Assembly (NCBI RefSeq): GCF_001953955.1
Contig: NZ_CP019301.1
Location: 124,001-188,000 of the forward strand
DNA length: 64,000 nucleotides
Origin: Prevotella intermedia ATCC 25611 = DSM 20706
Lineage (GTDB): Bacteria; Bacteroidota; Bacteroidia; Bacteroidales; Bacteroidaceae
Direction: 5' to 3'
The position numbers and the translations under genes were made by a program. Numbering within the stretch: position 1 is the first letter of the stretch; each line of letters opens with the position of its first letter. The notes under the pieces are model-generated. The model was not told the DNA's origin. It did no database searches and saw only the letters and a list, made by a program, of their open reading frames with translations. Shown here piece after piece: positions 1,197 through 63,981 of this stretch.

Positions 1197-1382
1197 TGTA
1201 AAGATAATTCCGTTAAAAAGTGGCAATTGCGTTTTGGCATTGCGAAAGCGGCTGTTTTGCATCGCAAAACAGCCGCTTTTACCTTGTAAAACCTACGCTT
1301 TTGGAATGCAAAACAATAGGTTTTGTAATGTGTTGATGGATAAGTAGTTAGGCGACAGTTGCGCTTGTGAAAAATATTTACA
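1197..1382 (+). repeat. 186-bp modular palindromic element, copy C1 (slots A, A', B')
   Basis: This is the first of the dispersed element copies. It runs from TGTAAAGATAATTC to the end motif GAAAAATATTTACA, 186 bp. The central slots read A (word GGCT), A' (AGCC) and B' (CTAC), so slot 1 can pair with the adjacent slot 2. It sits between the prolyl oligopeptidase promoter and the clpC terminator. It has no CTAG-rich leader. Confidence 0.9.
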
Positions 1383-1412
1383 CTATTATCGTCTGTTTTT
1401 GCCTATATACAA

Positions 1413-1452
1413 AAAAGACCGTAGCATAGAATGGGGTATGCTACGGTCTTTT
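1413..1452. terminator. Bidirectional intrinsic terminator downstream of clpC
   Basis: A perfect 16-bp stem (AAAAGACCGTAGCATA with its complement) encloses an 8-nt loop and has A-tract and T-tract on its two sides, so it can end transcription in either direction. It lies about 90 bp past the clpC stop codon. Confidence 0.9.
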
Positions 1453-1539
1453 TATTGTCGGGCACCAATGCTGTTCTTGCTGTTCGATTAATGCGTTTAT
1501 GCTTGTATGTAGGCACGCCTTTTGGCTGTACCTGCGCCT

Positions 1540-4065
1540 TTACTTAAACGTAAGTTCGTCTGCGTTAGGGTTCTTGCCGATAGCGATGGTTTCGCCCTCG
1601 TGGACTTTTCCTGCAAGTATTCTTTCGCAAATGCCGTCTTCAATATAGTTTTGTATGGCACGTTTCAGTGGGCGTGCGCCGAACTGGACGTCGTATCCCT
1701 TCGTGGCAACAAACTCTTTTGCCTTGTCGGTGATGGTGATGTCGTAGCCGAGTTCCTTTACACGCTTGAAAAGACTGCGCAGTTCGATGTCGATAATCAA
1801 CTTGATGGCAGCGAGGTCGAGCTGGTCGAAGGTGATGATTTCGTCCAAACGGTTCAGAAATTCGGGTGCAAACTGCTTGCTCAGGCTTTTCTGTATGATG
1901 GCACGAGCACGCTCCTTGTCTTGTTCGTTGTGCGAAAGTCCGTTGATATTCGCTGCCGTGAAGCCCACGCCTTGTCCGAATTCCTTCAGCTGGCGTGTAC
2001 CCGCATTCGACGTCATTATAATAATGGTGTTGCGGAAGTCAATCAGGCGTCCGTTGCCGTCGGTGAGTCTGCCCTCGTCGAGCACTTGCAATAGCATGTT
2101 GAACACGTTGCCGTGTGCCTTCTCTATCTCGTCGAGCAAGACGATAGAGTAGGGGTGGCGTCGCACTTGCTCGGTAAGCTGTCCGCCTTCTTCGTATCCC
2201 ACGTATCCCGGAGGCGCACCAATGAGTCGGGAAGTGTTGAAACTCTCGGTATATTCGCTCATATCGATGCGGATAAGGGCATCTTTAGAGCCGAACATAA
2301 TTTCGGCTAACTTCTTTGCCAAGTAGGTTTTGCCCACGCCTGTGGGACCGAGGAACATGAACGCACCTATGGGGTGGTTGGGGTCTTTCAGTCCTACGCG
2401 GTTGCGCTGAATGGCTTTCACCATCTTTTCGATGGCTTTATCCTGTGCGATAACCTCTCGTTTCAGATTGTCTGCCATATTGACAAGTCGCACGCCTTCG
2501 CTTTCCTGCATACGCTGTACGGGTACGCCTGTCATCATCGACACCACGTCAGCCACCTTGTCTTCGTCCACTTCCACACGGTTGTGGTCGTCGCCGCGCT
2601 CCCATCTCTGCTGTGCGTCCTGCAGTTTTTGCTCTAATACGGTCTGCTTGTCGCGGAAGTTGGCAGCCAACTCGAAGTTTTGGTTCTTCACCGCCTCCTT
2701 CTTGTTCTTGTCAGCTTCGTCCAATTCCTTCTTGAGTTCCACGATTTCGCTTGGCACCTGTGCATTTTGCAGGTGTACACGAGAGCCTACCTCGTCCATT
2801 GCATCGATTGCCTTGTCGGGGAAGAAGCGGTCGGTAACGTAGCGGTCTGTCAGTTTGACACACGCCGTAATGGCTTCGTCGGTGTACGAAACGTGGTGGT
2901 GAGCCTCGTAGCGGTCCTTGATGTTGTTCAGAATCTGCAAGGTTTCGTCTACCGTTGTTGGTTCTACGAGCACCTTCTGGAAGCGGCGTTCCAATGCGCC
3001 GTCCTTCTCTATGGAGTTGCGATATTCATCTAATGTCGTTGCGCCGATGCACTGTATGGTGCCACGGGCGAGGGCTGGCTTCAGTATGTTGGCAGCGTCC
3101 ATCGAGCCTGGGGTAGAGCCTGCACCGATGAGGGTATGTATTTCGTCGATGAAGATGATGACGTCGGGGTTCTGTTCGATTTCCTTGATGAGTGCACGAA
3201 TGCGCTCCTCGAACTGTCCGCGATACTTCGTACCTGCCACAACGCCTGTCAAATCGAGGGTTACGACACGTTTGTTGAAAAGGATAGGCGACGTCATACG
3301 CTTCACGATGAGTTGCGCAAGTCCTTCAACAATAGCACTTTTACCCACACCGGGCTCGCCGATGAGAATAGGGTTGTTCTTCTTTCGTCTGCCTAATATT
3401 TCGCTTACGCGCTGTATCTCCTTTTCGCGCCCCACCACAGGGTCGAGTTTGCCTTCCGCAGCCGCCTTCGTGAGGTCGGTTCCGAAGTTGTCGAGCACTG
3501 GCGTACCTGTTCTTGGCGCATTGGCTTGTGCCGTTCTCGTGCCGTCGCCGCTGCCACTGTGTCGGTTCATAATAGGGTCTTCGTCCTCGTCTTCGCTTGC
3601 CATGCCGATGCCGTCCTGTATCGGGTCGGTGGGTTGGTAGAGATGTTCGAGAGCCTTGGCGTAGTTAAGGTCGTTGTTTTGCAGCACTTCCTTTGCGCCA
3701 TTGTTCACGTTGTCGTGCAGAATGGCGAGCAATAGGTGCTGTACGTCAACCGTTTGGGTGCGCTGGCTGCGTGCTTCGAGCACTGCCAACTTCAATATGT
3801 TGTTTGCCTGTTCGTTCAACATCATATCGTTGGAGAGCGGCAACTGACCTTCGTTTTCGTTGCGTACACGTTCTTCCAACTGACTTTTTATGTTCTCCAA
3901 ATTGAGGTGTAATTTCCCAAACATATTGCTTACAGCCCCTTCTTTCTCTCGTAGAATGGCGAGCATAATGTGTTCTGGCCCCACTGCGCGGCTCGCCAAT
4001 CGTTCGGCTTCTTCGCGGCTGTAGGACAGAACCTCTGAAACTTTGGGTGAAAACTGATTTATCAT
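1540..4065 (-). CDS. clpC: Clp protease ATP-binding subunit ClpC
   Basis: This 841-aa protein is a class I Clp/Hsp100 unfoldase that feeds substrates to ClpP in the cytoplasm. Clp_N double repeats occupy about 1-140, followed by an acidic linker with SEDEDEDP (157-164). The first AAA+ module has Walker A GEPGVGKS (236-243) and Walker B IIFIDE (303-308). A short UVR-like middle segment ([18 protein letters not shown]) near 464-481 marks ClpC rather than ClpB, which carries a much longer coiled coil. The second AAA+ module has Walker A GPTGVGKT (573-580). Length is close to other ClpC proteins. It is transcribed alone: a terminator-like hairpin lies upstream and a strong terminator downstream. 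Confidence 0.93.
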
Positions 4066-4143
4066 ATTATTCTTGTACCTTTCTTTTTGTGTTATAAGGC
4101 ATTTGCCTTGTTCTCAGACTTGTATTGCAAATGGTGTGCCAAA

Positions 4144-4187
4144 GAGAAAATGGCAAGGGGAAACACGTTTGTTTCTTCTTGCCACTT
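4144..4187 (-). terminator. Probable terminator of the glgA / DUF4270 / small-protein operon
   Basis: On the minus strand, TGGCAAG pairs with CTTGCCA, with a second inner stem AAACA/TGTTT, and is followed by ATTTTCTCTTT. It begins just after the stop codon of the 43-aa gene, so it would end that operon before clpC. Confidence 0.55.
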
Positions 4188-4193
4188 CTGTAT

Positions 4194-4325
4194 TTATAAC
4201 GCTTCGTCGTCGGGTTTGCGAATGTTGCGCACCTTTTTTGTCTTCAGGTGTTTCTTCTTTCGCAGCCATGCTGCTTTGCGTTGTTCGTATTCTTCGTAAT
4301 GTTTCTCCAAGAAGTTATCTGCCAT
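4194..4325 (-). CDS. Small basic protein, 43 aa, unknown function
   Basis: A 43-codon frame begins at ATG 4325, overlapping the last 11 bases of the DUF4270 gene, and stops at TAA 4194. The product starts MADNFLEKHYEEYEQRKAAW, then a lysine/arginine-rich stretch (LRKKKHLKTKKVRNIRKP) and an acidic end DDEAL. It is probably helical and strongly basic in its second half, which would fit nucleic-acid or ribosome binding, but nothing identifies the function. The tight overlap with the upstream gene and the terminator directly after it suggest a real, co-transcribed gene. Small proteins of this style are often missed by annotation cut-offs. Confidence 0.6.
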   Translation of the reverse strand: MADNFLEKHYEEYEQRKAAWLRKKKHLKTKKVRNIRKPDDEAL

Positions 4326-7950: not shown

Positions 7951-7995
7951 GAATTAGACCCCACCCACCTTGTTTCAAGCGTGGAAGAACGACTA

Positions 7996-8075
7996 AAAAA
8001 CTGTAAACATTTTCTACAAACATAACTGTTGTGTAACAAACTTGTTGTCAATGCGTTGTGAAACATACGCTTTTG
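7996..8075 (-). repeat. Fragment of the modular element (3' end only)
   Basis: Read on the minus strand, the segment aligns with the right-hand third of the 186-bp element: the end of the hairpin region, the GTTATGCAATAGTTACG-like stretch and GAAAATGTTTACA. It is more diverged than full copies and the palindromic slots are missing. It fills most of the panD to HEAT-gene gap (7951-8123). Confidence 0.65.
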
Positions 8076-8123
8076 CTGTGCCAACGTGTAGACAGAACTA
8101 TCTGAATTATATAAAAAACAGCT

Positions 8124-9315: not shown

Positions 9316-10362
9316 ACGCGAGTTCGGGTTAAGAATGTCCTTGTAAAAGTTGGAAATCTCGTTAGTTTTTTGTAACTTTATAGTTGTAAATCAATAACTT
9401 ACAAAACAGCCAAGCAATGATTACCAAAGACAAAGTTACGGAAATATTCTGTATTATTGATGAGTTTGACAAGAATTTGAATGTTGAACTGAGTAAAAAC
9501 CTATGTTTACCATCTTATAACAGCAATGGAAAACGTTGCAGGAATCGTAAGGGAAGGCTTTCTGAGAGTGAAATCATGACAATCCTTGTGTGCTATCACT
9601 TCGGTACATATCGTAATTTCAAGGAGTATTATCAGAACTGTATCCGTGGGTGGCTCAGGCATGAATTCCCTGCTGCCGTCTCCTATAACCGTTTTGTGGA
9701 ACTCACGCCCCGTGTGTTCCTCAAGATGATGTTGTTCATGAAGCTCCATGCCTTCGGCAGGTGTACAGGCATAACGTTCGTTGACAGCACGATGATTCCT
9801 GTATGTCACAATGTAAGACGGAATTTCAACAAGGTCTTTGCCGGTCTTGCCAAGAACGGCAAGGGTACCATGGGCTGGTGTCATGGATTCAAGCTGCATC
9901 TGCTCTGCAATGATTCCGGTGAAGTGATAACATTCTGTCTTACAGGGGAAAACGTAGATGACAGGGACAGTAGAGTGTGGTCGGTGTTTGCAAAGGTTCT
10001 CTATGGAAAGGTATTTGCTGACAGAGGATACATCAAACAGGAACTCTTCGAGAGTCTGTTCAGTCAAGGTATCGGGCTCGTTCATGGACTTAAAGCAAGA
10101 ATGAAGAATAAGCTTATGCCTGTATGGGACAAGATTATGATGAGAAAAAGATACATCATCGAGTGCATTAATGAACTGCTAAAGAACAAGGCGAACCTTG
10201 TACACTCACGACACCGGTCAATACATAACTTTATCATGAACTTATGTTCTGCCCTTACGGCGTATTGCTTTTATGAGAATAAGCCAGAGGCACTGCCGGT
10301 ATATGTAGAAAATTCAAGACAGTTAGAACTATTTGCATAATAAACTTATCCCGAACTGGCGT
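9316..10362 (+). mobile_element. Intact IS982-family insertion sequence
   Basis: The element is about 1.05 kb with 18-bp terminal inverted repeats: left ACGCGAGTTCGGGTTAAG (9316-9333) and right, read inward, ACGCCAGTTCGGGATAAG (10345-10362), 16 of 18 matching. It holds one uninterrupted transposase gene. No convincing target duplication is visible: the left flank is a TATATATAT run and the right flank AGAGTTTCT. The right end abuts a fragment of the dispersed modular element. Confidence 0.88.
9417..10340 (+). CDS. IS982-family transposase
   Basis: The 307-aa protein is a DDE transposase of the IS982 family. Diagnostic segments are FGTYRNFKEYYQ, AVSYNRFVEL, ITFVDST with the first acidic residue, GLAKNGKGTMGWCHGFKLHL, GNVDDRD with the second, VFADRGYIKQELFE, and a final IIECINELLKN with the glutamate. 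The frame is complete and lies inside matching inverted repeats, so the element may still be mobile. Confidence 0.93.
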   Translation: MITKDKVTEIFCIIDEFDKNLNVELSKNLCLPSYNSNGKRCRNRKGRLSESEIMTILVCYHFGTYRNFKEYYQNCIRGWLRHEFPAAVSYNRFVELTPRVFLKMMLFMKLHAFGRCTGITFVDSTMIPVCHNVRRNFNKVFAGLAKNGKGTMGWCHGFKLHLLCNDSGEVITFCLTGENVDDRDSRVWSVFAKVLYGKVFADRGYIKQELFESLFSQGIGLVHGLKARMKNKLMPVWDKIMMRKRYIIECINELLKNKANLVHSRHRSIHNFIMNLCSALTAYCFYENKPEALPVYVENSRQLELFA

Positions 10363-14330: not shown

Positions 14331-15083
14331 GACTCACCGCTTCCGAGACCTCAAGTCCTTCTACTTAGGCTATATCTGCCAGCATATGCGTGGAGACTTC
14401 CCACATCGGATTTCCTACAACCGCTTCATCGAGCGTCAAGCACAGGTCGCACTGCACCTGTTGCTGTTTCTCCAGACATGTGCACTGGGCAAGTGTTCAG
14501 GCATATCCATCATTGATTCCACACCACTGTCTTCCTGCCACATCAAGCGTGAGCGGCAGCACAGGACCATGAGGGGCTGGGCGGCAAAGGGAAAGTGCAC
14601 CATGGGCTGGTTCTACGGCTTCAAGCTACATCTTGTCATCAATGACAAGGGAGAGATTATCCAGTGGAAGCTCACGCCAGGAAACGTAGATGACAGGGAA
14701 CCATTGAAGGATAAACGCTTCACCGAGAGGTTGTTTGGAAAACTCTTCGCAGACAGGGGGTATATCAGTCAGAACCTCTTTGAGATGCTCTTTGTGGACA
14801 ATATACATTTGGTGACCAAGATAAAGAAGAACATGAAGAACTCCCTGATGAGCCTGTATGATAAGTTGTTGCTCAGAAAGCGTTCTGTGATAGAGACGGT
14901 GAACGATGAACTGAAGAATGTGTGTCAGATAGAACACACCAGACATCGCTCTTTTGATAACTTTGCAACAAATCTGATAGCAGGAATCATTGCATACAAT
15001 CTGTTGCCAAAGAAGCCAGAAATGAACATAGAGATAATTGATAAAAGCAGGATAATTGCATAGAGCTTATATCGAACTCACGT
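14331..15083 (+). mobile_element. IS982-family element remnant, left end lost
   Basis: Only the right two thirds of a second IS982-type element remains. The right inverted repeat, read inward, is ACGTGAGTTCGATATAAG (15066-15083), similar to that of the intact IS but not identical. The left terminus and the first ~70 transposase codons are gone. Sequence right of the repeat continues as the 3' end of a modular element copy. Confidence 0.82.
14335..15063 (+). pseudogene. 5'-truncated IS982-family transposase
   Basis: Homology starts at about 14335 with HRFRDLKSFYLGYICQHM and runs through ISYNRFIERQ, GISIIDSTPLSSCHIK, GWAAKGKCTMGWFYGFKLHL, NVDDREP, LFADRGYISQ and ETVNDELKN to a normal stop. The N-terminal helical domain and the start codon are missing. 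An internal ATG at 14386 could begin a 225-aa product but it would lack DNA-binding residues. The protein is clearly a different IS982 subfamily member from the intact one at 9417, not a copy of it. Confidence 0.85.
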
Positions 15084-15087
15084 TAAA

Positions 15088-15137
15088 TGAGTTACACAAC
15101 AGGAACGTCTGTGAAAAATGTTTACACGCTTTTCCCC
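15088..15137 (+). repeat. Fragment of the modular element (3' end) beside the IS remnant
   Basis: The stretch GTTACACAACAGGAACG followed by CTGTGAAAAATGTTTACACG matches the last ~45 bases of the 186-bp element in plus orientation. It starts right after the IS982 right inverted repeat, as expected if the IS had landed inside an element copy. Confidence 0.6.
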
Positions 15138-15220
15138 TTTCTCTTCTTTATTGGAAGGCTTATAGTAAGGTGTTTGTTAAAACTTTTCGCTTATGTTTTT
15201 GCCATGTAAACTTTAATGTT

Positions 15221-18024: not shown

Positions 18025-18330
18025 TGTAAATATTTTTCGCAAGCGTAGCTGTTGTGTAACTATCTTGTTATCAATGCTTTGCAAAACCTATTGTTTTGCG
18101 TTCCAAAAGCGGCTGTTTTGCACGGTAAAAGCGTAGGTTTTGCAGCGCAAAAGAGCCGCTTTCGCAATGCCAAATCGAAATTAGCGTTTTTCAAAGAAAT
18201 TATCTTTACAAAATTAAGGCTGTTTCTATTTGTTGGTTTAAAGTTCTAGGTATTTTAGGGAAACTAGAATTTCTATATGAAACTTTATTTTTTCAGCTGT
18301 GCCAGCAGCGTGATACTTCACGCCTCTATA
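18025..18330 (-). repeat. Modular palindromic element, copy C2 (slots A*, B', A') with leader
   Basis: The 186-bp core is at 18025-18210 on the minus strand. Slot 1 carries the variant A* (arm ends CTTTTGC in place of GTTTTGC), slot 2 is B' and slot 3 is A', so slot 1 pairs with slot 3 with one mismatch. The leader follows at 18211-18330 with CTAG-type inverted repeats and the GCGTG-ATACTT-CACGC hairpin. It lies between the ferritin terminator and the mrp promoter and is the only full copy in minus orientation. Confidence 0.9.
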
Positions 18331-22952: not shown

Positions 22953-23287
22953 CGCATAGGTATTTGTAAGACGCAATGTTGGTTGGGGTGCAATTTATTA
23001 CGCTGCTAACACAGTAGAAAAAATAAAGTGTCATATAGAAATTGTAGTTTTCCTAGAATACCTAGAACTTTAAGCCAACGCATAGAAACAACTTTGATTT
23101 TGTAAAGATAATTTATAAGGAAAACGCTAATTTTGATTTGGCATTGCGAAAGCGGCTGTTTTGCATCGCAAAACAGCCGCTTTTACCGTGCAAAACCTAC
23201 GCTTTTGGATTGCAAAACAATAGGTTTTGCAATGCGTTGATAACGAGGTGGTTATACGATAGTTATGCTTGTGAAAAATATTTACAC
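22731..23287 (+). repeat. Left copy of a ~555-bp direct repeat flanking the S41 peptidase
   Basis: The segment contains the 3' part of the 122-aa gene, its downstream flank and the whole modular element C3. It recurs at 25127-25679 with the same order and only scattered substitutions. The shared flank outside the element (GCGCATAGGTATTTGTAA and beyond) shows that this is a segmental duplication and not two independent element insertions. Confidence 0.88.
23001..23287 (+). repeat. Modular palindromic element, copy C3 (slots A, A', B') with leader
   Basis: Leader from TACGCTGCTAACACAG (23001), then the 186-bp core at 23101-23286. Slots are A, A', B', so the short hairpin (slot 1 with slot 2) is perfect. 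The slot 1-2 linker is ATC. The stretch from here to the next promoter (23288-23636) shows no gene, repeat or clear signal. Confidence 0.9.
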
Positions 23288-25390: not shown

Positions 25391-25679
25391 TACGCTGCTA
25401 ACACAGTAGAAAGAATTAAGGGTCATATAGAAATTATAGTTTCTCTATAATCCATAGAACTTTAAGCCAACGCATAGAAATAGCCTTAATTTTGTAAAGA
25501 TAATTTCTTTGAAAAATGCTAATTTCGATTTGGCGTTGCGAAAGCGGCTGTTTTGCGATGCAAAACAGCCGCTTTTACCGTGCAAAACCTACGCTTTTGG
25601 AATACAAAACAATAGGTTTTGCAATGCGTTGATAATGAAGCGGTTATGCAATAGATACACTTGTGAAAAATATTTACAC
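25391..25679 (+). repeat. Modular palindromic element, copy C4 (slots A, A', B') with leader
   Basis: The core is at 25493-25678 (186 bp). Slots are A, A', B' as in C3, but the slot 1-2 linker is GAT, the exact reverse complement of ATC in C3. That is what inversion between the two paired arms would produce. Confidence 0.9.
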
Positions 25680-32983: not shown

Positions 32984-33262
32984 TACGCTGCATTAACAGC
33001 GTGTTCATCTAGAAATTCTAGTTTTCCTAGAGCTTCTAGAAACTCTAGCATAAAACTTTAAAACAGCCTTCCTTTTGTAAAGATAATTCCAACGAAAAAC
33101 GCTAATTTCGATTTTGCACTGCGAAAGCGGCTGTTTTGCAACGCAAAACCTACGCTTTTACCGTGCAAAACAGCCGCTTTTGGAATGCAAAACAATAGGT
33201 TTTGCAAAGTGTTGATAATTAAGCCATTACGCAACAGTTACGCTTGTGAAAAATATTTACAC
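32984..33262 (+). repeat. Modular palindromic element, copy C5 (slots A, B', A') with leader
   Basis: Leader with CTAG hairpins (TCTAGAAATTCTAG and CTAGAGCTTCTAG) starts 25 bp past dnaX; the 186-bp core is 33076-33261. Slots are A, B', A', so slot 1 pairs perfectly with slot 3 and encloses slot 2, the long hairpin. The rest of the gap to the moxR promoter (33263-33498) shows no gene. Confidence 0.9.
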
Positions 33263-43915: not shown

Positions 43916-44052
43916 ATGTTTACAAAGGCGTTGTAAAAGCGGTTGTTTTGCAATGCGAAAGCGTAGGTTTTGCAAGGCAAAACAGCCGCTTTTACCGTGC
44001 AAAACCTACGCTTTTGAAATGCGATAGCGAAATTATGGTTTTTTGTAAACAT
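43916..44052. repeat. Compact modular element, copy C6 (slots A, B, A', B')
   Basis: This 137-bp variant has a perfect 11-bp terminal inverted repeat (ATGTTTACAAA with TTTGTAAACAT). Inside, four 17-bp modules stand in the order A (variant word GGTT), B (GTAG), A' (AGCC), B' (CTAC). A would pair with A' and B with B', so the stems cross instead of nesting. It lies between queA and the Smr gene. Confidence 0.82.
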
Positions 44053-44085
44053 TTATTACAGCAATCGAAGTAAAAGATAAAGAAA

Positions 44086-48257: not shown

Positions 48258-48389
48258 ATCACTTACTTGGCAATGCCGTGAATGTGGGGTTGCAACATAA
48301 GCACATAATAGACACACCACAATATAGCAACTATTGGCAGGAAAAAGAAAAACATTGAGGGAATATTTGAGCGTATGGCATAAAAGCGT

Positions 48390-48661
48390 TACCTTTGCAT
48401 AAGATAAGCTGCACTCGAACATTCAAGAATAAATTCTTACGTTACTCGTTGGCATTATCTTTGCATAAGATAAGCTGCACTCGAACATTCAAGAATAAAT
48501 TCTTATGTTGCTCGCTGGCGTTATCTTTGCATAAGATAAGCTGCACTCGAACATTCAAGAATGAATTCTTATGTTGCTCGTTGGCATTACCTTTGCATAA
48601 GATAAGCTGCACTCGAACATTTAAGAATGAATTCTTATGTTTCTCGTTGGCATTATCTTTG
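48390..48661 (+). promoter_or_regulatory. Tandem array of five -7 boxes in exact 66-bp register
   Basis: TAnnTTTG boxes start at 48390, 48456, 48522, 48588 and 48654, exactly 66 bp apart (TACCTTTG or TATCTTTG). Each is followed by GCATAAGATAAGCTGCACTC, GAACATTCAAG and the near-palindrome AAGAAT-nn-ATTCTT. The last unit is cut after the box. It lies about 130 bp ahead of the surface-protein gene at 48795. Because 66 is divisible by three, a repetitive 22-residue frame is also open through it; I regard that as a by-product. Confidence 0.85.
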
Positions 48662-48794
48662 CATACGCTAAAAAAATCAATATTATGACCTTGTAATAAA
48701 TAAGGTAGAAATTTATTTTAACTTCTCAAACGCCCGCGCCTCCGACACGGCGTTGCTCTGAAAGAGTTTCAACAGGGAGGCACAAGTAAAAACA

Positions 48795-50828
48795 ATGATG
48801 ACAAACTTATTAAGAAACAGCTGCGCAACGTTCGTGGCGTTGTTCATTGCAATGTTTGCCCTGCCCACCACGACGCAGGCGCAAATCGAGTACAACCTTG
48901 CGGTTGGTGGCAAGGTGGTAACTTCAGATAACTGCAAAGACCTCTCCGAGATTGACGGCGTAAGCGGAACTGTAAACTACGAACCTAAAACCAAAACGCT
49001 AACACTGCAAGACGCAACGATAGAAGGCGACATTATGTACGCCATATCTTCAGACATCTACGGTCTGAAAATTAAAGTCTTGGGCACCAACAAGATAACT
49101 GCACAGGCTTATGGAATTATCTTCTCAAGACCAACAAGTATCATAGGCGACGGAACACTCGAGATAGTAGGTAGCGACGAAAGCGGTATCAACACCAGTG
49201 GCAACACGCTCACCGTCGAGGGCTGCACTCTGAATGTCAAGGGAGGAAAGTTTGGCATTAGAGGATATGACGGTAATCACGGCGAAGACATCACTGTCAA
49301 GAACGCCAAGATAACCGCAGAGGGCACAAGTGAAGGCTCTATCGGCAACATAGCATCGCTCGCTATGGAAGGCTGTGCCATCATCGAGCCTGCTGGAGCA
49401 GCGTTCGACGAATCTTTGCACGGCGTTGCACTGAACGGAGCGTTGGTGAAAGACAAGGTAATTATCGCACCAGCTTCGGCACCTGTTACCGAATACGAAC
49501 TCATTATTGCAGGTACAAAGGTGAACGATAAGAACTGTGGCAACCTTTCTGAGATTGAAGGGGTGAAGGGAACCGTGAAGTACGACCCTGAAACCAAGAC
49601 CCTAACACTCGAAGATGCTACGATAAATATCGAAAAAGAGGATGCAATTTACTCTGTAATCGACGGTTTGACACTCAAGGTTGTTGGTAACAACACGCTG
49701 AAAGGCACCAATACAGCCATCGGTTTCCAAAAGCCAATGACCATTACAGGCGGCGGTACGCTCAATGCAGAGAGCACTAAAGAAACTGCTATCTACGCTG
49801 TCGGTACTTCTCTTGTTATCGAAGATTGCACCATAAATGCGAAAGGATTAGCCTGTGGCATCTCTGGAAATGACGGAGAGAATAGCGAGCAGCTCACCAT
49901 CAAGAATGCCAAGGTAACTGCCGAAGGCAAAGAGGGAGGCTCTGTATGCGACTTTGTTACCCTCACGATGGAAGGTTGCGTTATCACCGAACCTGTGGGA
50001 GCAGCGTTCAACGAGTCGTTGCACGGCGTTGCACTGAACGGAGCGTTGGTAAAAGACAAGGTTGTCATTGGTCCTGCACCAGCACCTATAACCGAATACG
50101 AGCTTATGATTGCAGGCGTAAAGGTGAACGAGAAGAACTGTGGCAACCTTTCTGAGATTGAAGGCGTGGACGGAACAGTGAAGTACGACGATGAAACGAA
50201 GACCCTCACCCTCGAAAATGCTACGATAAATGTAGGAGAGAAGAATGCCATCTTCTCTGTAATCGACGGTCTGACAATCAAGGTTGTCGGCAACAACACG
50301 CTGAAAGGCAGCGAGGCAGCTATCGTCTTCTCAAAGCCAATGACCATTGCAGGTGGTGGTACGCTCAACGTGGAGAGCACCAAACAAACAGCTATCAACG
50401 CTATTGGTACTGCTCTCACCATTGAAGATTGCACCGTAAATGCGAAAGGATTGGACTGTGGTATCTCTGGAAACAGTGGAAAGGACGAAGAGAAGCTCAC
50501 TGTCAAGAAAGCTACGGTAAGTGCAGAGGGCACAAACTTGGGCTCAATCTGTAACTTGGCAATGCTCACCATGGAGGGTTGCGCCATTACCGAACCAGTG
50601 GTAGCTGAATTTGACGAATCGCTGAAAGGCGTTGCGCTCAAGGGAACATTGGTAAAGGGCAAGGTGGTGATAACCAACGGTGCAACAGCTATCGGCTCAT
50701 TGACAACCGACACAGCCACTGCAAAGCAGGGTATCTACACCCTTAGCGGTGTCCGTCTTTCTGTTGAACTGAACAAACTGCCAAAGGGCGTGTACATTGT
50801 AAACGGCAAGAAGGTAGTAAAGCAATAA
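48795..50828 (+). CDS. Three-repeat secreted surface protein, probable type IX cargo
   Basis: The 677-aa protein has a signal peptide (CATFVALFIAMFALPTTTQA) and three homologous blocks of about 201 residues starting near 33, 234 and 435 (EYNLAVGGKVV, EYELIIAGTKV, EYELMIAGVKV). Each block alternates short strands such as GTLNAESTKETAIYAVG and LTIKNAKVTAEG, which suggests a right-handed beta-helix. The end (GIYTLSGVRLSVELNKLPKG, then VYIVNGKKVVKQ) is the Prevotella-type sorting tail. Ligand and function are unknown. The nucleotide similarity between blocks suggests recent internal duplication. It is preceded by the promoter array and a leader hairpin (AACGCC/GGCGTT, 48729-48754). Confidence 0.83.
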   Translation: MMTNLLRNSCATFVALFIAMFALPTTTQAQIEYNLAVGGKVVTSDNCKDLSEIDGVSGTVNYEPKTKTLTLQDATIEGDIMYAISSDIYGLKIKVLGTNKITAQAYGIIFSRPTSIIGDGTLEIVGSDESGINTSGNTLTVEGCTLNVKGGKFGIRGYDGNHGEDITVKNAKITAEGTSEGSIGNIASLAMEGCAIIEPAGAAFDESLHGVALNGALVKDKVIIAPASAPVTEYELIIAGTKVNDKNCGNLSEIEGVKGTVKYDPETKTLTLEDATINIEKEDAIYSVIDGLTLKVVGNNTLKGTNTAIGFQKPMTITGGGTLNAESTKETAIYAVGTSLVIEDCTINAKGLACGISGNDGENSEQLTIKNAKVTAEGKEGGSVCDFVTLTMEGCVITEPVGAAFNESLHGVALNGALVKDKVVIGPAPAPITEYELMIAGVKVNEKNCGNLSEIEGVDGTVKYDDETKTLTLENATINVGEKNAIFSVIDGLTIKVVGNNTLKGSEAAIVFSKPMTIAGGGTLNVESTKQTAINAIGTALTIEDCTVNAKGLDCGISGNSGKDEEKLTVKKATVSAEGTNLGSICNLAMLTMEGCAITEPVVAEFDESLKGVALKGTLVKGKVVITNGATAIGSLTTDTATAKQGIYTLSGVRLSVELNKLPKGVYIVNGKKVVKQ

Positions 50829-50969: not shown

Positions 50970-51155
50970 TGTAAAGATAATTCTGACGAAAAACGGTAAT
51001 TTCGATTTGGCGTTGCGAAAGCGGCTGTTTTGCAACGCAAAACCTACGCTTTTACCGTGCAAAAGAGCCGCTTTTGGAATGCAAAACAATAGGTTTTGCA
51101 ACGTATTGATAATTAGGTTGTTATGCGATAGTTACGCTTGTGAAAAATATTTACA
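50970..51155 (+). repeat. Modular palindromic element, copy C8 (slots A, B', A*')
   Basis: The core is exactly 186 bp with no CTAG leader. Slot 3 carries the A* arm (GCAAAAG-AGCC), so the long hairpin has one mismatch. Between here and the malic enzyme stop (51156-51434) there is no gene; a small hairpin CCGATAG/CTATCGG lies at 51249-51266. Confidence 0.9.
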
Positions 51156-51346
51156 GTTTTATAGTCTTATTTCTGCATATTGAGCAAGGAATAGAAGCGG
51201 AATAGAGGGAGTGGGCGAGGAGGTTTTCTGTTCGGAAGAGGATAGGTTCCGATAGGTTTCTATCGGTTTGTTGTGAATGTAAATGCCACAGCAAGATGAT
51301 AGGGCAGATAGGGTAGTTCAAGTTACTGTTGCTTCGTTATAAATGT

Positions 51347-51382
51347 AAACGCCACCTTGCTGAGGGCAGTAAGGTGGCGTTT
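51347..51382. terminator. Terminator of maeB; near-twin of the hairpin at 54526
   Basis: AAACGCCACCTT pairs perfectly with AAGGTGGCGTTT around a 12-nt loop (GCTGAGGGCAGT). On the minus strand it follows the malic enzyme stop by about 50 bp. Stem and most of the loop recur at 54526-54561. Confidence 0.75.
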
Positions 51383-51434
51383 GTATTATAATAAGGTAGC
51401 GTTTGTGTGGTAAGCACGCAGTTCTGGTGCTTGC

Positions 51435-54477: not shown

Positions 54478-54525
54478 GACTGTTTGCTCGGTCGGGCACC
54501 TTATATATAATAGGAACGGAAACGT

Positions 54526-54561
54526 AAACGCCACCTTGCTGAGAGCAACAAGGTGGCGTTT
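54526..54561. terminator. Terminator between tetR and relA-like genes; near-twin of 51347
   Basis: Same 12-bp perfect stem (AAACGCCACCTT/AAGGTGGCGTTT) as at 51347 with loop GCTGAGAGCAAC. It lies between the convergent TetR and RelA-like genes and can serve both. Confidence 0.75.
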
Positions 54562-54600
54562 ATAAGTTTATAAAATAGGAGTGGCAGGATTATAACGACG

Positions 54601-56951: not shown

Positions 56952-58469
56952 ATGTTAACAAAGCAAGACGAACTATTATTGAACTCAAAAGGCATCACGC
57001 TTTCCGACTTTGAAAAGCAACTTGCCGACTTTAAAAACGGTTTTCCTTTCCTTAAAATAGAGAGCGCAGCCACAGTTGGCAATGGCGTTGTGCGTTTAAA
57101 GGAAAACGAAGTAAAGGAATTTACAACAGCTTGGGACAGTTACAAAGCCGAAAAACACAAGGTCGTGAAGTTTGTTCCTGCCTCCGGAGCAGCCAGCAGA
57201 ATGTTCAAAGACCTTTTCGCATTCCTCGAAGCAGCGTATGAAGTGCCTACGACCGACTTTGAAAAATTCTTTTTCGACAATCTGAAACACTTCGCTTTCT
57301 ACAACGAACTGAACGAAAAGTGCAAGGCTACACACGGAAAAGACATTGCGCAACTCGTGGAAGCAGGCAACCATAAAGCCATTGTTGCAACACTCTTGCA
57401 CACCGATGGACTTGACTACGGGCAGTTGCCGAAGGGCTTACTGCTATTCCACAAGTATGCCGAAGGCGAACGCACGGCAATGGAAGAACACCTTGTTGAG
57501 GCTGCCCAATACGCATCGTGCGGCGCAGAGGCACACGTTCACTTCACGGTATCGCACGAACACCTCGAACTTTTCAAGGCAAAGGCTGCCCAAAAGCAAC
57601 CTATGTACGAGGAAAACCACCGCACCCACTTCTCCATAACCTTCTCCGAGCAGAAGCCAAGCACCGATACCGTAGGTGCAAACCCCGACAATACGCCTTT
57701 CCGCAACGACGACGGCTCGCTTTTGTTCCGCCCCGGTGGGCACGGTGCGCTCATTCAGAATCTTAACGACATAGATGCCGACGTGGTATTCATCAAGAAT
57801 ATCGACAACGTAACGCCCGACCGACTGAAACCTGAAACCGTAACGTGGAAGAAGGTAATAGCAGGCGTATTGGTAACGTTGCAGGAAAAGACTTTCGAAT
57901 ACGTCAGGAAACTGAAGGCTGCCGACTATACGCCAGCCGACCTGCAGTGTATGAAGAACTTCTTGGAGAACGATTTGCACTGCCGCCGCAAGGACATCGA
58001 CCAGCTGAACAACGATGAATTGGCAGCCTACCTGCTCGAAAAGTTCAACCGTCCTATGCGTGTTTGCGGAATGGTAAGGAACAGCGGCGAGCCCGGTGGC
58101 GGTCCGTTCTATGCCTACAATGCCGATAACACCATCAGTTTGCAGATACTTGAAAGTTCGCAGATAGACAGCAACGACGCCGAATCGGTAAGAATGTTCA
58201 AGGAGGGAACCCACTTCAACCCCGTAGACTTGGTTTGCGCCACGAAGGACTATGCAGGAAAACCGTTCGATTTGCCACAGTTCGTAGACCCTGCCACAGG
58301 TTTCATCAGCAGCAAGTCGAAGAACGGAAAAGAGCTGAAAGCATTGGAACTCCCTGGTCTTTGGAACGGAGCAATGAGCAATTGGAACACTGTGTTCGTA
58401 GAAGTGCCCGCAATCACTTTCAATCCAGTAAAGACCGTAAACGACTTGTTGCGCGAGCAGCACCAGTAA
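56952..58469 (+). CDS. DUF4301 family protein
   Basis: The 505-aa cytoplasmic protein matches DUF4301: VVKFVPASGAASRMFKDLFAFL near 75-96, GHGALIQNLNDIDADVVFIKNIDNV in the middle, and RNSGEPGGGPFYAYN near 375. The repeated glycine-rich loops and the GHGAL...D pattern resemble nucleotidyltransferase folds, but no activity is known to me. It has its own promoter and a perfect terminator, so it is monocistronic. Confidence 0.85.
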   Translation: MLTKQDELLLNSKGITLSDFEKQLADFKNGFPFLKIESAATVGNGVVRLKENEVKEFTTAWDSYKAEKHKVVKFVPASGAASRMFKDLFAFLEAAYEVPTTDFEKFFFDNLKHFAFYNELNEKCKATHGKDIAQLVEAGNHKAIVATLLHTDGLDYGQLPKGLLLFHKYAEGERTAMEEHLVEAAQYASCGAEAHVHFTVSHEHLELFKAKAAQKQPMYEENHRTHFSITFSEQKPSTDTVGANPDNTPFRNDDGSLLFRPGGHGALIQNLNDIDADVVFIKNIDNVTPDRLKPETVTWKKVIAGVLVTLQEKTFEYVRKLKAADYTPADLQCMKNFLENDLHCRRKDIDQLNNDELAAYLLEKFNRPMRVCGMVRNSGEPGGGPFYAYNADNTISLQILESSQIDSNDAESVRMFKEGTHFNPVDLVCATKDYAGKPFDLPQFVDPATGFISSKSKNGKELKALELPGLWNGAMSNWNTVFVEVPAITFNPVKTVNDLLREQHQ

Positions 58470-59430: not shown

Positions 59431-59463
59431 TTTTCTATTATTTATTTTTCAATATAATCTTAT

Positions 59464-59477: not shown

Positions 59478-59479
59478 TA

Positions 59480-59646: not shown

Positions 59647-59833
59647 TGTAAAGATTATTCTGAAGAAAAACGGCAATTTCGATTTGGCATTGCGAAAGCG
59701 TAGGTTTTGCGATGCAAAACAGCCGCTTTTACCGTGCAAAACCTACGCTTTTGCAACGCAAAACAATAGGTTTTGTAAAGTGTTGATACATAGTTGGTTA
59801 TGCAAAACTTTCACTTGTAAAATTTCTTTACAT
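59647..59833 (+). repeat. Modular palindromic element, copy C9 (slots B, A', B')
   Basis: The core is 187 bp, with no CTAG leader. Unlike every other copy, slot 1 carries word B (GTAG) and slot 3 B', so the long hairpin is made with the other word. The slot 1-2 linker is GAT. It lies between the KilA-N gene and the KilA-N remnant. Confidence 0.9.
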
Positions 59834-59854
59834 ATTTTTAGCTTGCTTCTTCCT

Positions 59855-60036
59855 TAATTCAAGGATAGCCAATGTTGCTGTATGGCTATCTCTATTGCTT
59901 TGCAAAATGTTTGCTTTATGGTGCGTATAGCGTGCTTTTGCATTGTGTTTAGAGCTACGTCCGACGTACTGATAGGATACTCGTCATAGCGTCTGACAAT
60001 ATGAATAAACATTTTTTGTAAAATAAAATCTGCCAA
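59855..60036 (-). pseudogene. KilA-N gene remnant with a large internal deletion
   Basis: The minus strand reads IVRRYDEYPISTSDVALNTMQKHAI, matching IVRHNDEDYISLTDMARSQMQEHII at the start of the intact KilA-N protein, and then jumps to IEIAIQQHWLSL, matching KIAIQQMVVLE near its end. At the DNA level the stretches ATATTGTCAGACGC and GATAGCCATACAGCAA are shared. About 200 codons are missing between. It is a dead second copy. Confidence 0.75.
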
Positions 60037-60063
60037 AAAGAATGTTTTTTCAAAAAATATACT

Positions 60064-60071
60064 TATCTTTG
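60064..60071 (+). promoter_or_regulatory. -7 box (TATCTTTG) for the large surface protein
   Basis: TATCTTTGCG lies about 160 bp ahead of ATG 60230, giving a long leader. The leader includes AGTGC...GCACT complementary stretches (60107-60145) and a run of T before the start. Confidence 0.55.
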
Positions 60072-60229
60072 CGAAGTGTCAAAAATTCACTTATTTGCGT
60101 TTTAAGCAGTGCGGAAGTAAACGAAATGTTGATATGCGTAAGCACTAAGTAACCTTTTTACCATTTTATTGCTTACTTTTTTTAAGAGTTATAAAACTGC
60201 TAAATTAAAGAACTAAAAACATCATTATT

Positions 60230-63200
60230 ATGAAAAAGCATTATTTGTTGGTTCTATTTCTGTTCTTCTTCTGTGGTATGCAGGCAGACGAAGTGAAAGT
60301 TTTAGATGTAAACACCTATTCTTTGGCAATATCGCCAAATGGTAAGTATCTTGTGGGATACAATCCAACTAAAGTCCAATCAGGAGTTGGAACAGAGAGC
60401 TTCGTGTACGATGTCGGCAGCGGAAGCCTCCAATGGGTAACAGCCGACGACCCTGAGCATTGGAAAACCTGCGGTTTGTTCAGAGATGTGAACGATGCAG
60501 GCACGCTGTGTGGCTCGGTTAAGGACTTAGACCACATTATAGAATTCTACGGAACAAGTGCTCCTACCAACATTGCAGCTATATTTGAGAATGGGGAAGT
60601 TGTGAAACTCCCTTATGGAAATCTGGATATGACGAAAATAAAGCAGCACGAAGACGGAACCTTCGCAGCAGCACTGTCGAACGATGGAAAAGTCGTTGCA
60701 GGCTATTGCAAATGTTCTAATTTCGCATTCAGCTATCCTTGCAAGTGGACTCGTGGTGCAAACAACGAGTGGAAAATGGAGCAACTGCCCTTGCCCGAGA
60801 GCTATAAATACGGTCTTGCAATCAATGTGTCGTCTGACGGACGCACCATTGTGGGATTGGCAATAGAAGGAGGTAGAGCAATTGCGTGTTATTGGATAGA
60901 CGGAAAATGCTATACTGTGAACTGCACGAACGAAGATGCCGAGCTGGCGAAGATGAAACAGATGCGTATGATTGATATGAGCCCCAATGGCAAGTACTTC
61001 ATCTTCTCGCTTTCAAGCCGTTCCGACTACCGACTTTTCGATGTAGAGAAAGGCACATACCGCGTATTGCCCACCTTTGAGAGAAACGAAACAATGCGCA
61101 TACCTACGGTTGCTGATAATGGCGACGTGTTCGGTGCAATAACTTACAGCACGGCTGGTATGGGCGAAGTTTCATACAGAAGTTTCTGGTATCAATATTC
61201 TTCAGACCGAATTTTCGATTTCACCTATTATCTATATTTGTTCAATCCTCAACTTACCATACCTTTCCCATTGAATTATGAAGACAAAGCACAGGCATTC
61301 CCGTCTGCAGTGTCGGCAAACGGAAATGTTGTTACTGGCAATAGAGACACTAATATTGCGTTTGGGCAAATTCCTAAGGCATGGGTATTGAATGTAACCA
61401 AGCGAGATGTGGAAATTCCTGCCACCCCCAATAAACCAAATGGAGGTTCAACAGGGTTACACCAAATTCAGCTTTCGTGGAAGATAGACAAGGCAACTTA
61501 CAATTCATTGACGCTGAAAGGCTACAATGTGTACTGTGATGGTAAAAAGGTTGCAATCTTGAAGGAATTGCAAGACGAGATGACATTTGCGCTGAAAGAT
61601 GTCTATGCAGGCTACCGTAAGTTTGCAATCGAAGCGATATACACTGACAAACAAGGAAAAGAGATGCTTTCGCCACGCTCTAATCCTGAAGTAATTGCCG
61701 TTCCTGACGACTATTCGTTCCCACTTTTCGAAAATTTCGAGAAGGGTTCGCTGAATACTAACTATTGGACGAAGAGCAAGGATTACGGCGACGATGCCGA
61801 TACAGAGTGGTTGGTGGCAGCCCAAGTAGGACACGACGCCTCAATCGGACTGTCTACCGGAGTGTGCACATTCAAGCCTTACTCGTCAAGTGTGATAAGT
61901 CGTCCGCTCGATGCAACCAAGATAAACAAGGTGAAATGTTCGTTCTTGATACTTTGCAACCAAGAACCTGCACAGGGAGGCGGTGAGGTTGATTTAACCA
62001 AAGACACACTCAGCGTGGAATATACCGTAGATGGCGGAAAGTCGTGGAGCGTAGCCAAGGAATGGACAGTGAAGGAACTGCCGAACTTGGAAGGCATCTT
62101 GACGGTCGATTTAACGAAGCACGTTGCTGGCAAAGTATTCCAAGTAAGGTTCCGCAAGCACGGAAAGGGCGCAGTGTCATACTATTTCTACCTTGACAAC
62201 ATTATGATAGGCAGTGGCGACAACGTCGATGCACCAAAGGGATTCACAGGCAAAGTGATGAACAACGAACTCTTCCTGATGTGGAAGAACAGCCGAAACG
62301 GCTACTCGCTCAACTATCTTTCCGACCCAGAATCGCCAGGCTACACACTCGGTAATGAAGGAAAGGAACTCATCGGAGCAAACAAATTCATGCAAGGCGA
62401 GCTTGCGCCATACCACGGCAAGTACCTTACTTCGGTAACAAGCTACATCAACTACTACGACGATGCAAGCGGCGATAAGGGCATTCACGCAGCTGTTGTG
62501 GTGTTCGAAGACGGAAAACTCATCTGCGAACAGGAGATAGAGAACATCAAGTACAACGAGAATACAACCCAAAAGCTCAATCAGCCCATCAAGATTGACA
62601 GCGGAAAGGAACTGATTGTGGGCATTAAGATTCACGATTACGACGCCGAGCAGATTCCTCTGACCTACGAAAGCTCTAAATCGAGCGTAACTGGAAAGAG
62701 CGACCTCTACTCTGAAGACAACGGAAAGACTTGGAAAACCGTGCGCGACTTCTACGAAGACGACCCACAGATGGGCTCTTGCTGCTGGCGAATTACAGGC
62801 AACATAACCGACCAGCCTAACGATGCTGTCGCAGAAGAGGACAATACCCTCATCGGTTACAACGTTTTCCGCAACGGTGTGCAGCTGAACAACGTCTGCA
62901 TTCCTTTCGAAGTAACACGCTATATCGACAAGCAACCACTCGACAAGGCTGAATATACCGTCGTGGCATACTACAATGACGGAAGAGAATCTTTTGCTTC
63001 TACACCGTACATACTCGACTTAACCAATGGAATAGCACCGTTGGTAAACAAGTCTGTCTTATCGGTAGACAAGTCTGCAATAAGGTTGAATGCTGAAGGA
63101 ACGCTGCGCCTCTACTCTGTCGATGGGCATTTTGTAGCCAAGAGTGCCAAGGGCATTATTCCGTTAGGCAACATTTCTTCGGGCATCTACATCGTATTGG

Positions 63201-63250
63201 TTGAATATAATAATCAAAGATTCACCCAAAAGATTCTCATCAACAAATAA
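60230..63250 (+). CDS. Large secreted adhesin-like protein with type IX sorting domain
   Basis: The 1006-aa protein has a signal peptide (YLLVLFLFFFCGMQA), an N-terminal propeller-like region of repeated SPNGKYLVGY / SNDGKVVAGY / SSDGRTIVGL / SPNGKYFIFS strands (to about 390), a fibronectin III-like part (IQLSWKIDKATYNSLTLKGYNVYCDG), then a cleaved-adhesin-type beta domain (FPLFENFEKGSLNTNYW ... FYLDNIMIGSG) near 500-665. The last ~75 residues (LYSVDGHFVAKSAKGIIPLG, SSGIYIVLVEYNNQRFTQK) form the type IX C-terminal domain, so it should reach the cell surface or medium. The role is unknown; adhesion is a guess from the domains. Confidence 0.85.
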   Translation: MKKHYLLVLFLFFFCGMQADEVKVLDVNTYSLAISPNGKYLVGYNPTKVQSGVGTESFVYDVGSGSLQWVTADDPEHWKTCGLFRDVNDAGTLCGSVKDLDHIIEFYGTSAPTNIAAIFENGEVVKLPYGNLDMTKIKQHEDGTFAAALSNDGKVVAGYCKCSNFAFSYPCKWTRGANNEWKMEQLPLPESYKYGLAINVSSDGRTIVGLAIEGGRAIACYWIDGKCYTVNCTNEDAELAKMKQMRMIDMSPNGKYFIFSLSSRSDYRLFDVEKGTYRVLPTFERNETMRIPTVADNGDVFGAITYSTAGMGEVSYRSFWYQYSSDRIFDFTYYLYLFNPQLTIPFPLNYEDKAQAFPSAVSANGNVVTGNRDTNIAFGQIPKAWVLNVTKRDVEIPATPNKPNGGSTGLHQIQLSWKIDKATYNSLTLKGYNVYCDGKKVAILKELQDEMTFALKDVYAGYRKFAIEAIYTDKQGKEMLSPRSNPEVIAVPDDYSFPLFENFEKGSLNTNYWTKSKDYGDDADTEWLVAAQVGHDASIGLSTGVCTFKPYSSSVISRPLDATKINKVKCSFLILCNQEPAQGGGEVDLTKDTLSVEYTVDGGKSWSVAKEWTVKELPNLEGILTVDLTKHVAGKVFQVRFRKHGKGAVSYYFYLDNIMIGSGDNVDAPKGFTGKVMNNELFLMWKNSRNGYSLNYLSDPESPGYTLGNEGKELIGANKFMQGELAPYHGKYLTSVTSYINYYDDASGDKGIHAAVVVFEDGKLICEQEIENIKYNENTTQKLNQPIKIDSGKELIVGIKIHDYDAEQIPLTYESSKSSVTGKSDLYSEDNGKTWKTVRDFYEDDPQMGSCCWRITGNITDQPNDAVAEEDNTLIGYNVFRNGVQLNNVCIPFEVTRYIDKQPLDKAEYTVVAYYNDGRESFASTPYILDLTNGIAPLVNKSVLSVDKSAIRLNAEGTLRLYSVDGHFVAKSAKGIIPLGNISSGIYIVLVEYNNQRFTQKILINK

Positions 63251-63296
63251 GATGAAGTAAAGAACCCCTGTTCTAAGGAACATATTACACTGCGAT

Positions 63297-63344
63297 TGAC
63301 CTTTAATTATGGCGAAACTGCCATAGTTAAAGGTCATTTGTTTT
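63297..63344 (+). terminator. Intrinsic terminator of the large surface protein
   Basis: TGACCTTTAATTATGGC pairs with GCCATAGTTAAAGGTCA with one mismatch around a 6-nt loop and is followed by TTTGTTTT. Confidence 0.9.
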
Positions 63345-63477
63345 AGGCAGCTGGCAATAGTTTAAAGGGTTTCTCCCTAGAACATCTACTACCCCTAGAA
63401 CCCCTAAAACCACCAACCCCGCCACCCCCGCACCCATATTTCCCCCTCCCAGCTACCCCATACTCGCCGAAAATGCC

Positions 63478-63485
63478 TATCTTTG
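63478..63485 (+). promoter_or_regulatory. -7 box (TATCTTTG) in front of a gene fragment
   Basis: TATCTTTGC lies 94 bp ahead of the ATG at 63579. It is an exact TAnnTTTG match within a C-rich region. Confidence 0.45.
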
Positions 63486-63578
63486 CACAGCGGAACAATA
63501 CTGGGCTGCCTCCCATTTGCGGCACGTTGCAGCACCCACTCCGCACAACACGCCAACTCAAAACAACTGATAACGATA

Positions 63579-63781
63579 TGAGAAAACATCTTATCTTGCT
63601 CTGTACAGCGGCTTTCCTGTCGTCGCTGCACATCAACCGAAGCCAACAGAACCGAACGAGCCACCGCATCGAGCCGATGCAAAAGCCCCAACCACCCTTG
63701 CCGATGTCGCACTATCGGCAAAGCCGCCCTTGTGCTGCCGTCCGAATCCACGCCACAACCTCTACACTTTCCACGACGTAA
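63579..63781 (+). pseudogene. Possible 5' fragment of a secreted-protein gene
   Basis: The frame starts MRKHLILLCTAAFLSSLHIN, a convincing signal-peptide opening, but then becomes rich in R, H and P. A +1 shift gives a more protein-like reading (TTLADVALSAKPP, NLYTFHDVKPL) that runs into element C10. This fits a gene broken by a frameshift and cut off by the element. It may also be a chance frame. No family recognised. Confidence 0.35.
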
Positions 63782-63795
63782 AACCACTCCTATTT

Positions 63796-63981
63796 TGTAA
63801 AGATAATTCCATAGAAAAACCATAATTTCGATTTTACATTCCAAAAGCGGCTCTTTTGCAACGCAAAAGAGCCGCTTTTACCGTGTAAAACCTACGCTTT
63901 CGCAATGCAAAACAATAGGTTTTACAATGTGCTGATAACGAGATAGTTACGCAATAGTTTTGCTTGTGAAAAATATTTACA
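63796..63981 (+). repeat. Modular palindromic element, copy C10 (slots A*, A*', B')
   Basis: The core is exactly 186 bp, ending 19 bp before the window edge. Slot 1 carries the A* arm (GGCTCTTTTGC) and slot 2 the matching complement (GCAAAAGAGCC), a compensatory pair, so the short hairpin remains perfect. Slot 3 is B'. It follows the secreted-protein gene fragment directly. Confidence 0.88.

Follow-up and report, generated by a model that had tools for sequence, protein, structure and literature searches.

The window considered here is a 64,000-bp stretch of the genome of Prevotella intermedia ATCC 25611, positions 124001–188000 of a 708,235-bp contig in a genome of two contigs (2,674,170 bp in total; GC content 43.9% in the first genome sample). 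It carries repeated copies of a 186-bp intergenic element, which begins with TGTAAA, ends with TTTACA and is apparently the repeat PINSR of the P. intermedia/nigrescens group or its direct equivalent. An initial annotation of the window had listed ten copies. Reading of the letters confirmed the coordinates of nine standard ones, each exactly 186 bp, with the copy at 18025 placed on the minus strand; the copy at 59647, previously given as 187 bp, also has 186 bp, its TTTACA ending at 59832. The tenth copy is a variant, and two 3' fragments come in addition. The letters in the list give the order of exchangeable 7-nt words, which are described below.

1197..1382, plus strand: 186-bp element, words A-a-b
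7979..8089, minus strand: 3' fragment of the element
15086..15147, plus strand: 3' fragment of the element, adjoining the right end of an insertion sequence
18025..18210, minus strand: 186-bp element, words A*-b-a
23101..23286, plus strand: 186-bp element, words A-a-b
25493..25678, plus strand: 186-bp element, words A-a-b
33076..33261, plus strand: 186-bp element, words A-b-a, following a dnaX-like gene at a distance of 116 bp
33124..33139, plus strand: left arm of the 16-bp stem (element positions 49–64) in the copy at 33076
33165..33180, plus strand: right arm of the 16-bp stem (element positions 90–105) in the copy at 33076
43920..44053, minus strand: tenth, non-standard copy with the usual 22-bp core and other ends, TGTTTACA ... 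TGTAAACA; 79 bits
47988..48173, plus strand: 186-bp element, words A-b-a
50970..51155, plus strand: 186-bp element, words A-b-a*, between convergent genes
59647..59832, plus strand: 186-bp element, words B-a-b, at a locus common to the sister species G017
63796..63981, plus strand: 186-bp element, words A*-a*-b

The 300-bp stretch ending about 70 bp upstream of the copy at 25493 is 93% identical to its counterpart before the copy at 23101. The ends of the variant at 43920–44053, TGTTTACA and TGTAAACA, are symmetric and lie near a gene start, and the variant perhaps represents a second subfamily.

The 3' end of the element, CTTGTGAAAAATATTTACA, was found with up to three mismatches at 219 places in the genome (112 + 107), on two replicons, while its reversed control did not occur in this genome, so the repeat is not due to chance. 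Copies were collected with a profile from 1,236,000 of the 2,674,170 bp (46%), a non-uniform sample of spaced stretches and the window, in which the second set of stretches is limited to the first half of the large contig plus a portion of the small one. This sample gave 121 matches of at least 60 bits, 111 of them with both ends recognisable, and of the latter 109 are 186 bp long, one 187 and one 158. The remaining ten matches, which are cut, partial or degenerate, were left out of the length count, and one further copy outside it measures 275 bp, i.e. 186 + 89. The near-invariant length reported for the window thus extends to the genome sample, and the scatter of lengths that such a profile search could have brought to light was not seen in this genome. 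The 109 copies of 186 bp carry 2825 substitutions relative to their consensus, a mean of 25.9 per copy.

Length is also largely kept in two relatives. The sister species G017, of which about 19% of the genome was sampled, gave 62 matches and 56 two-ended copies, 45 of them 186 bp, the others being 187 (3), 185 (2), 164 (2), 142 (2), 197 (1) and 204 bp (1). In a third species, G383, 20 matches gave 17 two-ended copies, of which ten are 186 bp and the rest 187 (2), 142 (2), 143 (2) and 164 bp (1). Nine of these 18 deviating lengths correspond to 186 bp minus one or two 22-bp units, if 143 is counted, and seven are one base off.

The ends of the element form an imperfect inverted repeat, and the 11 of 14 matching positions noted earlier were confirmed by eye. 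Conservation and pairing were followed in 112 copies of three species, all of 186 bp, comprising a random 60 of the 109 copies of the own genome, 42 of the 45 from G017 (three lay across stretch borders) and all ten from G383. The end helix, positions 1–6 with 181–186, is paired in 99.4% of cases. In columns 37–128, T and A tracts follow one another with their centres 11 bp apart, and many tract columns are invariant across the 112 copies. The best-fitting tract period is 11.0 bp. The phasing score of element cores is 5.67 versus 0.76 (standard deviation 0.78) in 244,397 other windows, with 105 of the 109 copies above the 99.9th percentile; the highest-scoring non-element window lies above the element cores, at 7.79. 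Phased A/T tracts curve DNA, and periods of about 11 bp are reportedly often linked to the pitch of DNA under negative supercoiling.

Between the tracts lie four 7-nt words, at positions 52–58, 74–80, 96–102 and 118–124. The exchange of internal words described in the initial annotation is real, and it follows rules. Slot 1 contains GCGGCTG/C in 83 of the 109 copies and GCGTAGG in 19, and slots 2 and 3 together contain, as a rule, one CAGCCGC-type and one CCTACGC-type word. The word orders A-b-a (61 copies), A-a-b (27) and B-a-b (18) leave only three copies with any other order. A near-perfect complement (at least six of seven positions) between two of slots 1–3 is present in 100 of 109 copies, compared with a mean of 78.1 and a maximum of 90 in 1000 shuffles. 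The same holds for 43 of 45 copies in G017 (shuffle mean 37.1) and nine of ten in G383 (shuffle mean 5.9), where the shuffle maxima, 43 and 9, equal the observed values. In the first 71 copies of the own genome, slots 1 and 3 pair more often than in shuffles (44 versus 34.6) and slots 1 and 2 less often (20 versus 31.9).

The pairing of slots 1 and 3 belongs to a 16-bp stem formed by positions 49–64 and 90–105, in which a change of the 7-nt word on one arm is mostly accompanied by one on the other. When this stem is counted along with the end helix and a left hairpin, two-sided changes are present in 155 cells (144 belonging to the stem), compared with 93.1 ± 6.0 in shuffles; none of 500 shuffles reached the observed value, and no slid version of the pairing exceeded 47. 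Eight pairs carry a two-sided change, which is not above shuffles (184 of 500). The covariation is strong but not final, since the shuffles keep relatedness. RNAalifold recovers the long stem unprompted. The adjacent hairpin, which joins slots 1 and 2, was rejected as the conserved fold, as its covariation does not rise above shuffles.

G-T and A-C deviations are equally frequent in the main stem (20:19), while G-T prevails in the end helix (27:0) and the left hairpin (76:20), the counts together giving no consistent sign of the folding strand. Mean fold z values are −4.8 for the plus strand and −5.4 for the minus strand in the same 24 of 71 copies. The earlier description of a structured RNA or DNA with strict spacing finds support in the phased tracts, the fixed length and the covarying stem, and the length, rhythm and compensating words show that the structure is maintained.

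None of 71 copies of the own genome overlaps a called gene, nor does any of 56 in G017 or 17 in G383. Seen in the orientation of the element, the flanking genes of the 71 copies are arranged +/− in 30 cases, +/+ in 22, −/− in seven and −/+ in seven, with five at stretch ends, and the gene on the 5' side points into the element in 55 of 69 cases. In G017 the 56 contexts are +/+ 18, +/− 17, −/+ 13 and −/− 8, and in G383 the 17 are +/− 5, +/+ 4, −/− 3 and −/+ 3, with two at stretch ends. Tandem contexts in the same direction outnumber those in the opposite one by 22:7, 18:8 and 4:3 in the three genomes; because a simple gene caller was used and some loci are shared between genomes, the orientation bias is only moderate evidence. 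For 46 elements a gene in the same direction lies within 400 bp, and 18 of these elements are already preceded by a terminator-like hairpin (shuffled, 0). The element itself was rejected as an intrinsic terminator, as a hairpin with a T run, called by the authors' own rule rather than a benchmarked program, was found in one of 46 cases on the plus strand and none of 71 on the minus strand. Rfam gave no match in the window at gathering scores.

Thirteen orthologous loci with flanks 83–93% identical are shared with G017, in a search that counted shared loci only, and 11 of the 13 pairs are of equal length. A looser list of 32 pairs (26 of equal length) was discarded, since it contained matches between flanks of non-orthologous copies that resemble miniature inverted-repeat transposable elements (MITEs). 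The identity of the elements is 0.827 in orthologous pairs and 0.780 in unrelated cross-species pairs. In none of the 11 pairs are the three words identical, each member using words common in its own species, and in orthologous copies the words are 0.714 identical versus 0.924 for the rest of the core. Identity by itself gave no significant sign of concerted evolution (0.745 and 0.754 for words within species versus 0.714 in orthologues; bootstrap P 0.12, 11 pairs); the claim of dialects rests on word counts. No clean empty site was seen in the comparison with G017. The best reading overall is that the element is old, constrained in its fold, located at gene ends and mostly inherited vertically in place.

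Naito et al. (2015; PMC4755523) reported PINSR from P. intermedia, an intergenic repeat 188 bp long, with 177 and 184 copies in two strains, distributed over two chromosomes, and present also downstream of tnaA in strain ATCC 25611. The passages on PINSR in that paper assign it no function, and describe it as being without terminal inverted repeats and distinct from MITEs (PMC4755523). In 71 of the present copies the two columns before the element hold T in 67 (column −1) and 69 cases (column 0), and the next column outward does so in 60; two conserved T and 186 bp thus make 188 bp, the PINSR unit with conserved borders. The approximately 180 intergenic copies on two chromosomes compare with 219 ends on two replicons here, and a copy of the element lies about 240 bp past the tnaA match, in the same direction. 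On the basis of this length, the similar copy number and the tnaA site the element is taken as PINSR, identified by length, place and copy number. The conservation mostly in place and the departure from a typical MITE are likewise common to the two descriptions, and an apparent confinement to a few related species would fit as well. The view of the initial annotation that no named family has this design was therefore mistaken. A literature search for PINSR with Prevotella returned nothing beyond PMC4755523.

The repeat itself was thus already published in 2015, and what is new is the anatomy and the wider class: the 11.0-bp tract period, the 16-bp stem with words changing on both arms, the three dialects, the length steps of 22-bp units and the kin arrays. 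The PINSR passages of PMC4755523 contain no mention of 11-bp phasing, 22-bp modules, a word rule, a covarying stem or kin arrays, and they deny terminal inverted repeats, whereas here the last six bases pair and 11 of 14 match. According to the passages on BrickBuilt of Porphyromonas gingivalis (PMC4596501), that repeat is also intergenic, with a unit of 23 bp (22 here) and leader and tail regions with small inverted ends, but its 19 copies range from 84 to 991 nt, the length being set largely by repeat number. The present element numbers hundreds of copies that share, with few exceptions, one length in the own genome, and its words depend on the slot; instead of 23-nt tandem repeats in variable number it shows 22-bp steps and 186 bp in 109 of 111 copies, with the number of units varying in some copies of G017 and G383. 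REP/BIME and ERIC of enterobacteria are extragenic palindromic repeats often found near gene ends, like the present element, and REP depends on RAYT. To our knowledge, these families have no 11-bp tract rhythm or exchangeable words.

Among 398 genomes of the same genus, six match the 186-bp element at E <= 1e-12, the own genome and G017 included. Five carry full-length copies, and in the sixth (G356) both matching copies seen are interrupted. The words differ as dialects: the own genome (G000) has GCGGCT(G/C), G017 mainly CCGTAGG with CCTACGG, and G383 mainly GTGCCTA/G with CAGGCAC-type words. The exceptions in G383 are two copies with own-genome words, which lie at loci matching the own genome, with element identities of 0.95 and 0.90.

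The tract rhythm extends further than the element. It was counted as AAAA-N7-TTTT-N7-AAAA-N7-TTTT with at most one mismatch and compared with the corresponding N8 pattern, a genome passing with at least 40 matches and a five-fold excess. The N7:N8 counts are 774:0 in the own genome, 733:3 in G017 and 322:2, 312:5, 237:10, 208:2, 172:1, 113:0, 102:0, 92:1, 85:1, 58:3 and 40:1 in other genomes of the genus, so that 13 of 72 same-genus genomes pass, the own genome and G017 included. None of 47 genomes of other families passes, one of them (25:1) failing on count alone. Several rhythm-bearing genomes have words unlike those of the own genome, and all eight arrays in the small number of stretches read from other genomes are intergenic. 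A count of phased arrays in 80 loci around dnaX in other genomes gave seven matches for N7 versus 1, 4, 1 and 1 for N5, N6, N8 and N9, which is nothing notable. It is tentatively proposed that parts of Prevotella carry genome-wide DNA 'scaffolds' with A/T tracts, an 11-bp rhythm and lineage-specific 7-nt words. In the P. intermedia group these would have become a fixed 186-bp unit with two normally complementary words, whose word set shifts jointly between sister species into three dialects, possibly pointing to concerted evolution by conversion or to a partner that reads the words.

The reading preferred here, to which a probability of about 0.5 is given, is that PINSR (or its equivalent) is an old, non-coding repeat of intergenic DNA that is at present inherited mostly at its existing loci and acts as a DNA-structural element at gene ends. 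It builds on the directly observed features of identity, length, phasing, covariation, intergenic place and shared loci. What is kept would be a shape, made of the pairing ends TGTAAA/TTTACA, about nine A/T tracts at 11-bp steps and the 16-bp stem 49–64/90–105. Tracts at such steps are expected to curve the DNA, and curved, hairpin-capable DNA could mark or insulate the boundary between transcription units, as REP/BIME-type repeats would do. The element might absorb supercoiling or bind a nucleoid protein, and the phased arrays of other species may do likewise.

Several observations weigh against this reading. In G017, 13 of the 56 copies lie between divergent genes, and the bias toward gene ends is weaker. 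Presence differs between the two genomes at the tnaA flank of G017, where the neighbouring sequence is kept and the element is missing, which looks like a loss, and at window positions 54512–54568, where there is no copy while G017 has one with MITE-like flanks together with a further gene. The adjacent stem 49–64/68–83 has 90 two-sided changes versus 88.3 in shuffles, no significant excess. Neighbouring words in the wider arrays are complementary in none of four cases in G065 and three of seven in G010; as pairing is not kept there, the rhythm and not the pairing is the common feature of the wider class. Finally, the complementarity of the words could also stem from template switching without selection.

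This last possibility is part of an explanation by neutral upkeep, in which the palindrome would be repaired and the words moved about by two processes, polymerase template switching from arm to arm and conversion among copies, with no selected function. Template switching reportedly creates and maintains hairpins, species-wide dialects need some exchange between copies, and between orthologues no part of the core is less conserved than the words (0.714 versus 0.924). Free correction of the arms, however, predicts the orders A-a-a and B-b-a, each seen once in 109 copies, and it leaves the fixed length, the invariant tracts and the intergenic place unexplained. The rule of one a and one b and the invariant tracts thus speak against pure neutrality, which seems rather improbable. 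Slightly less probable still is a structured RNA, the plus strand being read through from the upstream gene and its hairpin protecting or processing the 3' end. The 5' genes pointing into the element (55 of 69), the tandem bias (22:7, 18:8 and 4:3), the plus-strand fold z of −4.8 and the G-T excess in the end helix and left hairpin suit such an RNA, although that excess may descend from a few events. The main stem shows G-T and A-C in equal numbers, the minus strand folds equally well, no Rfam family is present in the window, and a terminator-like hairpin already precedes 18 of 46 elements, of which only one resembles a terminator itself. DNA is favoured over RNA both by the even G-T and A-C counts of the main stem and by the existence of arrays that lack pairing. 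Among selection for a DNA-structural role at gene ends, an RNA hairpin and neutral palindrome repair, the first is the authors' preference.

The initial annotation had also considered a non-autonomous element, and a MITE moved in trans by the transposase of an insertion sequence would be of this kind. Ten of 71 copies lie inside a 439–448-bp unit bounded by inverted repeats like GTTCGGTATAAGAA, which resemble those bounding PF13612 DDE insertion sequences of the own genome, and the G017 copy with such flanks opposite window positions 54512–54568 is of the same sort. This part of the family may have been carried along. The other 61 copies have no such repeats at the threshold used; the terminal inverted repeats of a resident transposase do not bound the 186-bp unit, as the insertion-sequence-type repeats lie outside it. 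The ends of the 186-bp unit show no target duplication (z did not exceed 1.5 for 2–12 bp), and a scan of about 3,400 other combinations of offset and length gave z from +4.6 to −4.2, read as noise. Conservation fades over 15–30 bp at the borders with no sharp end. With 13 loci shared between species, no clean empty site and the apparent loss at tnaA, movement as a MITE is doubtful for the 186-bp unit. A REPIN-like population kept by a RAYT (Y1) transposase would account for hundreds of hairpin copies, intergenic where sampled, with species-specific letters, but PF01797 has no match in any of the six carriers, though 11 of 23 genomes searched have one, and this origin is extremely unlikely. Almost as improbable are uptake or recognition words with species dialects. 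DNA uptake sequences of Neisseriaceae are reportedly short words that differ between related species and are spread over the genome, and the dialects GCGGCT(G/C), CCGTAGG and GTGCCTA/G are reminiscent of these; unlike them, the present words are parts of one long element, in which they usually form complementary pairs, and a 16-mer occurs at 456 places in the own genome, only about two per element.

The repeat has been named but not explained, and the new anatomy offers handles in the folding strand, the curvature and a reader of the words. It raises the question of how hundreds of dispersed copies change their vocabulary jointly while many loci, the length and the fold persist, and the three dialects at partly shared loci provide a natural data set for separating selection on the fold from template-switch repair.

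Some further observations concern mobile DNA and rearrangements. Insertion sequences of about 1 kb, with a DDE transposase (PF13612) and inverted repeats like ACGTGAGTTCGATATAAG, are located in the window at 9322–10356 and 14386–15077, and others of this size with ACGTGAGTTCGATATAAG-like repeats at L089, L100, L106, L107 and L116. In several genomes the repeat is interrupted (L094, L292, L294, L295; L106, L107) with common border sequences, the right one ending in ATCTT, a pattern suggestive of an integrative element that targets the repeat. On the second replicon, a stretch of at least 5 kb occurs twice in opposite directions with 99.8% identity (L106 3569–8559, L107 15001–20000). The G017 copy at 57754 (L241) has left and right flanks that match different places of the own genome (L110 6006 and window 50944), which places a rearrangement breakpoint at an element.

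The window also contains a 66-bp tandem array at 48386–48715 and, at 49216–50721 inside the open frame 48795–50828, three diverged copies of a 300-nt stretch with a spacing of 603 bp. Two terminator-like hairpins (CGCCACCTTGCTGAG...), at 51341–51399 and 54520–54578, are 81% similar and lie near different genes.

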